Below are positions 18,719 through 20,312 of a DNA stretch of 64,000 bases, in pieces. Source of the stretch: Candidatus Endomicrobiellum calonymphae (GTDB lineage Bacteria; Elusimicrobiota; Endomicrobiia; Endomicrobiales; Endomicrobiaceae); contig JAISYK010000007.1 in assembly GCA_031269945.1 (NCBI GenBank), positions 1-64,000 on the forward strand, in the 5' to 3' direction. The first letter of the stretch is position 1. Each line of letters starts with the position of its first letter. Both the position numbers and the translations under genes were made by a program. The notes beneath the pieces were generated by a model. The model had not been told where the DNA came from. It searched no databases and saw only the letters and a program-made list of their open reading frames with translations.

Positions 18719-19320
18719 ACTACGACTGCTCCAGCAATTATAAAGTTTAACGCAAAACTTTATCTCATCGAACTACGTAGAATTGCTGTGCAATTTTATG
18801 TTTTCTAAGATCGATCACTATATTTACACTATCAAGCTATTTACAAGCTTACATAATTAAATTCACAAAGAAAAAACTCAACAGCAAAACACGCCAAAAG
18901 CAACGTACCCCCCCCCACCTTGCACGTTGATATCAACACTAACCGCTCAAGATTTATAGCTTTTATTTTTGACTACAACATAAATCATGACTATTTTGCT
19001 GTTTTAGTTTAACAAGAAGCTACATCTTTTAATGTAATTGCCATATATGCAAACTTTATTACCTCAAATCATTCATTTTTTATAAGTATCTTTTGATTTG
19101 CTCCATTAAAGACATATAAGCACACATAAATCTAAAAACAACACCACGACACAAAAAAAGTTACGATTTTTTATTTTTCAAGCCACTTTTTATAAATTAA
19201 GAAGATGTATCGGTGTCTTTATTCATAAAAAGTACAACAAATAATACCCCGGATTATAGATGCAAACGTGTGAAGTGACACAATTACTTACTTGTAAATA
19301 TTTTCATGATTTTTACAGAG

Positions 19321-19772
19321 TGGAGGTGGCGGGAATCGAACCCGCGTCCGAAAATGTTTCAGTAAGACCGCTACAGGTTTAATCTGGAACTTCTTCATCA
19401 TACAACGCTACTTCCAGACAAGATCACGTTATAAACTGCTACTCTTTCATTCATTTTGAACCTACGACACAAATCGCCAATAACCAACTTGCCCTTTGTA
19501 GTTTTGCTCTTACAGCAGACGCCCAAAATAAAATACGACTTGTTTGTTCTAAGCAGCTATTGGCATTTCTCTAAGACTCCTAAAGTCCTTAAAACCATTT
19601 TTTATTCCAAGAAGAGCCAACAAGAACATTCCCAATCCTAGAATTTTAAAACTCTGCATTGAAGTAAAATCATTATTGTTGTTTATTTTTTAGTCGATTT
19701 TTACGGAGCCATCGACTAACTCCGACCTGCTGTCATTACATCAATCGTTCCCGTCGAACCCCATTCACCCCC
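19321..19772 (-). ncRNA. ssrA: tmRNA (SsrA), enlarged, with an apparent 43-codon tag frame
   Basis: Reverse strand 5' GGGGGTGAATGGGGTTCGACGGG pairs with 3' CACCTCC; PK1 CGGAG/CTCCG plus AGTCGAT/ATCGACT; 3' end CGGACGCGGGTTCGATTCCCGCCACCTCCA; CCA not encoded. Confidence 0.93.
19549..19680 (-). other. tmRNA proteolysis-tag reading frame: NNNDFTSMQSFKILGLGMFLLALLGIKNGFKDFRSLREMPIAA-stop
   Basis: Starts 11 nt after the PK1 3' strand (the same spacing as in E. coli tmRNA) and is open for 43 codons to TAG. Confidence 0.75.
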
Positions 19773-20312
19773 CCCCATTGCTATCTCACAACTTAATAAA
19801 CCTCGCCTTTTTCTATTTTCAATTCTCCTTTCTTTAAAAAAACTTTTGATGATATTTGAGCATCTAGTACTCAAATATTCTTCTTTCCCGCCATTGACCT
19901 CTGTCTTATGATTAAGTTTTTTGCATACATTTGCTTTACATATGCCTTCATCGCATACACCAACCTTTTTGTAGAATGCACCAAAAACGATTTTCTCTAT
20001 TCTAGCGTTTAGTAAAGCTCCCATACACATCGTACAAGGCTCTATTGTAACATATATGGAGCAATTGTTCAAACGATAATTCTTCAACTTTTTTGCAGCT
20101 TTTCTCAATGCAACGTTTTCAGCATGAGCTGTAGGATCGGATAATGTAATACATTTATTAAAACCTCTTGCTATTATTTTTTTATCTTTAACTATAACTG
20201 CCCCTATAGGTATTTCTTTTACTTTTTTTGCTTTATAAGCTTCCTTTATAGCTTGAAGCATAAAATAAGCATCATCTATCTCTGCGATTTGTTTGTTTTT
20301 CTCTTTATTCAT
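19716..20312 (-). CDS. tadA: tRNA-specific adenosine deaminase (3' end overlaps tmRNA)
   Basis: PTAHAENVALRKAAKKLKNYRLNNCSIYVTIEPCTMCMGALLNARIEKIVFGAFYKKVGVC; the last 19 codons lie inside tmRNA. Confidence 0.9.
   Translation of the reverse strand: MNKEKNKQIAEIDDAYFMLQAIKEAYKAKKVKEIPIGAVIVKDKKIIARGFNKCITLSDPTAHAENVALRKAAKKLKNYRLNNCSIYVTIEPCTMCMGALLNARIEKIVFGAFYKKVGVCDEGICKANVCKKLNHKTEVNGGKEEYLSTRCSNIIKSFFKERRIENRKRRGLLSCEIAMGGGEWGSTGTIDVMTAGRS

Follow-up and report, generated by a model that had tools for sequence, protein, structure and literature searches.

The tmRNA gene in the window, by which the whole 64,000-nucleotide stretch of DNA analysed here is meant, encodes a tag of 43 residues, about four times the usual length, in Candidatus Endomicrobiellum calonymphae (genome G000), and this reading was confirmed. 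It is highly probable that the gene belongs to a working type of tmRNA that carries out ordinary trans-translation, that its long tag was inherited within the family, and that the subgroup around G000 gained a selected hydrophobic core with basic residues after it. The RNA would add alanine plus 43 residues to stalled products; a long tag would already have been inherited in the family, and the G000 subgroup would then have acquired about 20 in-frame codons for the core and the basic residues, the core being most likely an additional element under selection, by which tagged products are drawn to the membrane or to a second protease, for example FtsH. Short tags are presumed in models of how tmRNA is loaded and its tag recognised; the family tags of about 23 residues, and the subgroup tags of 43-47 residues with a membrane-like core, suggest that a tag is able to carry more than a degron, and the core-bearing tag provides a direct test case for trans-translation wired to the membrane.

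The tmRNA gene and its reading frame

The features of the gene are as follows.

19318..19772, minus strand: tmRNA (ssrA) gene, 455 nt, from covariance model RF00023
19692..19724, minus strand: PK1 pseudoknot, CGGAG..CTCCG and AGTCGAT..ATCGACT, read from the sequence and conserved in relatives
19681..19691, minus strand: 11-nt resume-site leader AAAAAATAAAC, directly 5' of the resume codon
19549..19680, minus strand: tag reading frame, 43 codons plus TAG, NNNDFTSMQSFKILGLGMFLLALLGIKNGFKDFRSLREMPIAA, from the sequence and the indel pattern of relatives
19603..19644, minus strand: hydrophobic core ILGLGMFLLALLGI, best 13-residue mean hydropathy 2.51
19567..19602, minus strand: basic stretch KNGFKDFRSLRE, 3' of the core, net charge +2
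19552..19566, minus strand: degron-like C-terminus MPIAA, its -AA end nearly universal among family tags

A first-pass annotation, made from the sequence of the window, had proposed a tmRNA on the minus strand, and the Rfam model RF00023 indeed matches 19318-19772 over its full length (model positions 1-374) with 128.4 bits against a gathering threshold of 47 bits (E = 3.9e-51). PK1 was found as it had been described there, and the resume codon AAC (19680-19678) follows it at a distance of 11 nt. ARAGORN, when run on the window, did not call a tmRNA at these positions, and common tmRNA finders can thus miss such genes. The tRNA-like ends are intact, with an acceptor stem GGGGGUG..CACCUCC that contains a G-U at the third pair (G3-U70) and a complete T arm, CGGGUUCGAUUCCCG, both as judged by eye; PK2, judged in the same way, is weak. 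The best stem at the stop-codon hairpin (H5) has 4 bp, compared with 5-10 bp in most relatives, although H5 varies among tmRNAs and was not taken as essential for membership in the family of tmRNAs. Both the hairpin at the resume codon and that at the stop codon, which most relatives keep, are lost, which may point to relaxed constraint on the G000 tmRNA as an RNA while its reading frame is still maintained.

The resume-codon hairpin recurs just after PK1 in tmRNAs of the class (e.g. L073, L022 and L070), where its 5' strand starts at or beside the resume codon, and it is supported by the compensating pairs AACGAT/ATCGTT, AACAACA/TGTTGTT, CAACATTA/TAATGTTG and GCCAA/TTGGC; it is the element that is absent from the G000 copy. 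At the other end of the gene, a tadA-like ORF (19716-20312, minus strand) has no stop upstream of the tmRNA and extends 57 nt into it, its stop codon lying at 19716-19718. If RNase P cuts the 5' end of the tmRNA, the tadA message would be left without a stop codon and its protein product would become a substrate for tagging. The overlap amounts to 8 nt in G009, and tadA stops ahead of the tmRNA in six of the other relatives checked (the gap in G014 being 2 nt).

The tag frame runs from the resume codon to a TAG at 19551-19549. The probability of 43 open codons at the local base composition is about 0.045, so that one sequence alone is weak evidence and the case for translation rests on the relatives. 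A sequencing error that hides an early stop is unlikely, given that the same frame appears in three independent assemblies. In most respects the RNA resembles the E. coli type (RF00023, tag AANDENYALAA), with which it shares the tRNA-like ends, PK1, a resume site at a fixed distance, a tag that ends in -AA before a stop codon, and the presence of SmpB and ClpXP in the genome. It differs from that type by a tag of 43 residues instead of a modal 10 (PMC11915505), by the core and the basic segment, and by the loss of the hairpins at the resume and stop codons. According to a review, ssrA tags range from 8 to 35 residues in length (PMC8012679); a 2025 tmRNA database paper reports a mode of 10 and a minimum of 2 residues, its text giving no maximum (PMC11915505). 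The tag of G000, like those of its close relatives (43, 43 and 47 residues), exceeds the range of the review, and it is not claimed to be the longest known. A search of the literature for Endomicrobium tmRNA tags found no paper, and Endomicrobium is not mentioned in the tmRNA database papers of 2014 and 2025 (PMC4131195, PMC11915505), a statement that applies to the papers and not to the database entries.

Long tags in Endomicrobium and related lineages

Members of Endomicrobium and Candidatus Endomicrobiellum are inhabitants of flagellates in termite guts. Within the genus, 39 of 43 genomes yielded a tmRNA gene, and within the class 82 of 97 did so; tags were read from 63 tmRNAs, 38 of them from G000 or the same genus and 25 from the same family. 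All 63 encode long tags of 14-50 residues, mostly 20-35, the full range of 14-50 occurring within the genus and lengths of 18-30 in the remaining family. Four relatives from the same order (G037, G038, G039 and G042) have tags of 21-24 residues; short tags of 8-9 residues, including ANNNLALAA, ANTYAYAA and ANTEMAMAA, were found in G040, G041 and G043 and in each of the eleven class members that are more distant. The resume motif is ATAAAC in the long-tag relatives and ATAAGT before GCA in the short-tag ones, and it lies at an equal distance from PK1 in both. The tag frames of G002, G040, G043, G088 and G089 were set by hand from this motif. Almost all relatives have tags that end in -AA, in agreement with the degron end proposed for MPIAA; since the automatic picking of frames used an -AA end as one criterion, this agreement is not wholly independent evidence.

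Translation of the long frame across the family is indicated by the pattern of indels. In 19 pairwise alignments, 19 of the 21 indels within the tag are multiples of three, as opposed to 3 of the 44 indels in the remainder of the same RNAs (Fisher P = 2e-11, an indicative and inexact value, because the aligned pairs share history). Indels that preserve the frame inside the tag and not outside it imply that the extended tag is read as protein throughout the family. Long tags are a real trait here, probably inherited in this family and apparently kept by selection. The family tags, with a consensus like NDKFVPMQSVKPFMGFGAMPIAA, are homologous to that of G000, as they occur in the same RNA, start with NDN.., share ..MQ.F and end in ..MPIAA; the tags of other Endomicrobium and Candidatus Endomicrobiellum differ by lacking the hydrophobic and basic segment of about 20 codons. 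The first-pass annotation, whose overall interpretation is partly supported, had read the frame to its TAG as a 43-residue tag and had regarded it as overlong. The frame and the excess over 8-35 residues both stand, but the tag is not a single oddity, since the whole family carries tags of 14-50 residues; most of the excess would be ancestral, and about 20 codons are special to the core-bearing subgroup.

Several individual tmRNAs show further variation. Elsewhere in the genus the length of the tag drifts freely between 14 and 50 residues, and in-frame tandem duplications were observed in the tags of G062 (QVQMQVQMQV) and G021 (QAKML repeated). The G021 frame comprises 49 residues (L064/L160), and the 5' part of this tmRNA up to the end of PK1 is missing in the assembly, where the end of tadA is found instead; a pseudogene or a fault of the assembly may account for this. 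A frame of 50 residues in G034 (L050) has a different character and ends in LFA, a reading that is less sure because the usual GCTGCT-stop lies further downstream, out of use. Three strongly reduced genomes, G018, G032 and G035 (L060, L061 and L062, respectively), have very short tmRNAs of 270-307 nt, apparently without most of the downstream pseudoknots and still with tags of 14-21 residues. In G040 (L045) an insert of about 110 nt lies within PK1, with the inverted copies TTCCTGGGAACCAGTATTG and CAATACTGGTTCCCAGGA at its flanks, and the tag is normal, with 9 residues, despite this insert.

The hydrophobic core and its history

Only four genomes have a hydrophobic core with basic residues behind it, namely G000, G063 and G015 (tags of 43 residues each) and G006 (47 residues). 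Alignment with relatives, by which the first-pass annotation had meant the extension to be checked, places the segment in frame in G063, G015 and G006. These four tags rank highest among 61 by 13-residue hydropathy (2.25-2.51), and the core that had been noted in the single sequence is real. In each of the four genomes the net charge of the twelve residues after the core is +2 to +4 and that before it is -1 to +1; among the twelve most hydrophobic tags, only these four have a net positive charge after the core. The hydrophobic length is 13-15 residues and the 19-residue hydropathy is 1.2-1.8, so that the core falls short of a typical membrane span.

The core sequences diverge widely with their character kept, as in NNNLVSMQNFKVFVSGMFLVGLFFGMRKKSKGFENLGAMPVAA (G063) and NDDLTSTQNSKIPILGTLLLGFFLWIEKKFKGFKNLGAVPMAA (G015). 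Across the four genomes, the second codon position of the core has 39 T and no A among 58 sites, and the first and third positions have 41 T and 26 A among 116. In a neutral simulation on the four-genome tree, frames that were all open and hydrophobic arose in at most about 5 of 10,000 runs (P <= 0.00045, a value that depends on the assumed ancestor, living sequences having been used as ancestors). Residue identity within the core is low, and an excess of synonymous codon changes, sought in the core across the core-bearing genomes, was absent; together these point to constraint on the character of the segment and not on its sequence. The core therefore appears to be conserved as a hydrophobic segment, apparently under selection. 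Two other causes were considered and rejected, namely a mobile repeat inserted in the tag, as the segment occurs once in the genome, and RNA structure, as the tag folds no better than its shuffles (z from -1.4 to +0.3).

In the FtsH tree the four core-bearing genomes and G001 form one supported clade (100/99), in which G001 is nested. The G001 tag has 22 residues, NDNFNSTQHFEDLNSFGTPIAA, both ends of which match the core-bearing tags, with the core segment missing in frame. One gain and one loss, the latter in G001, would be the simplest reading of this history, based on a tree of one protein, and such a loss would imply that the core is dispensable in G001. Most of the refuting conditions set out in the first-pass annotation were not borne out: relatives in which the segment is an excised or non-coding insert were looked for and none was found, the absence in G001 being an in-frame deletion.

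Proteases and possible roles of the core

The genome encodes SmpB (G000:C6:25500-25922, E = 3.8e-49), ClpP, ClpX, Lon and FtsH, the last of which was found in all four core-bearing genomes. With SmpB and these proteases at hand, ordinary trans-translation followed by degradation by ClpXP through -PIAA may be taken as the default, and ClpXP most likely reads the terminal -PIAA, as both of its subunits are encoded and the -AA end is conserved. In mollicutes (Mycoplasma, Mesoplasma) the tags have about 26-27 residues and are read by Lon; to our knowledge they have no membrane-like core. The two cases are alike in that a long tag occurs in genome-reduced bacteria and differ in that ClpXP is absent in mollicutes and present in G000. 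A loss of ClpXP or Lon behind the long tag, of the mollicute kind, was rejected because ClpP, ClpX, Lon and FtsH were all found, and protease loss does not account for the length of the tag.

What the core adds to this default may be approached in several ways. It is possible, although rather unlikely, that the core gives Lon or FtsH an extra site at which to recognise soluble products or to start on their degradation. The genome has both proteases, and the long mollicute tag serves Lon. Hydrophobic C-terminal motifs have been described as Lon degrons in Mycoplasma pneumoniae (PMC7737663). A soluble degron of this kind would, however, have no need for the conserved order of charges after the core, and, in contrast to mollicutes, G000 has ClpXP, so that no protease loss would have to be made good.

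Another reading, unlikely in its full form, sees in the core and the basic residues a signal for stop-transfer or membrane anchoring. On a truncated export substrate jammed in the Sec channel, the tag would halt translocation, its -AA end would stay in the cytoplasm, and FtsH (or ClpXP) would extract the product and clear the channel. The 13-15 residue core and the charges on its two sides are found in all four genomes in the order that the positive-inside rule predicts for a cytoplasmic C-terminus, and FtsH is present in each of them; judging by its title, a 2016 paper by Hari and Sauer, cited in PMC7949044, reports that E. coli FtsH degrades an ssrA-tagged membrane protein. On the other hand, the core is shorter than expected of a membrane-spanning segment by its 19-residue hydropathy, no reason was found why only this subgroup should need such a signal, and G001 has lost it. 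A rescue tag that also stops export and keeps its degron at the membrane within reach of FtsH, of which no earlier description was found, appears improbable in this specific form, even though routing of tagged products to FtsH, which the first-pass annotation had put forward, or to the membrane is plausible as a putative role that fits the shape of the core.

Neutral expansion is likewise unlikely. Tags in small-population endosymbionts would then grow and shrink in frame, for instance by tandem duplication, with only their ends being important, and the core would be a chance gain whose loss is still to come. Lengths of 14-50 residues within one genus, the in-frame duplications in G021 and G062, the loss of the segment in G001 and that of two RNA hairpins from the G000 copy are all consistent with such a process; it is opposed by the hydrophobicity of the core in four diverged genomes, which goes beyond the neutral simulation, and by the strong bias at the second codon position. 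An untranslated insert, with the resume codon or the stop elsewhere or the segment excised and a short true tag, is extremely improbable, as nothing besides the unusual length was found in its favour and it conflicts with a frame that stays open across the segment in four genomes, with multiple-of-three indels largely confined to the tag, with a resume motif whose distance from PK1 is fixed whether the relative's tag is long or short, and with the lack of a conserved fold in the segment.

Many members of the genus were found to have, besides the main FtsH, a shorter M41 (FtsH-like) protein of about 550 residues; in the reduced genomes, G000 included, the M41 match is the main FtsH alone. The loss of this shorter paralogue was considered as a cause of the core and set aside for want of specificity, a single M41 match being likewise seen in G001, G029 and further reduced genomes that lack the core.
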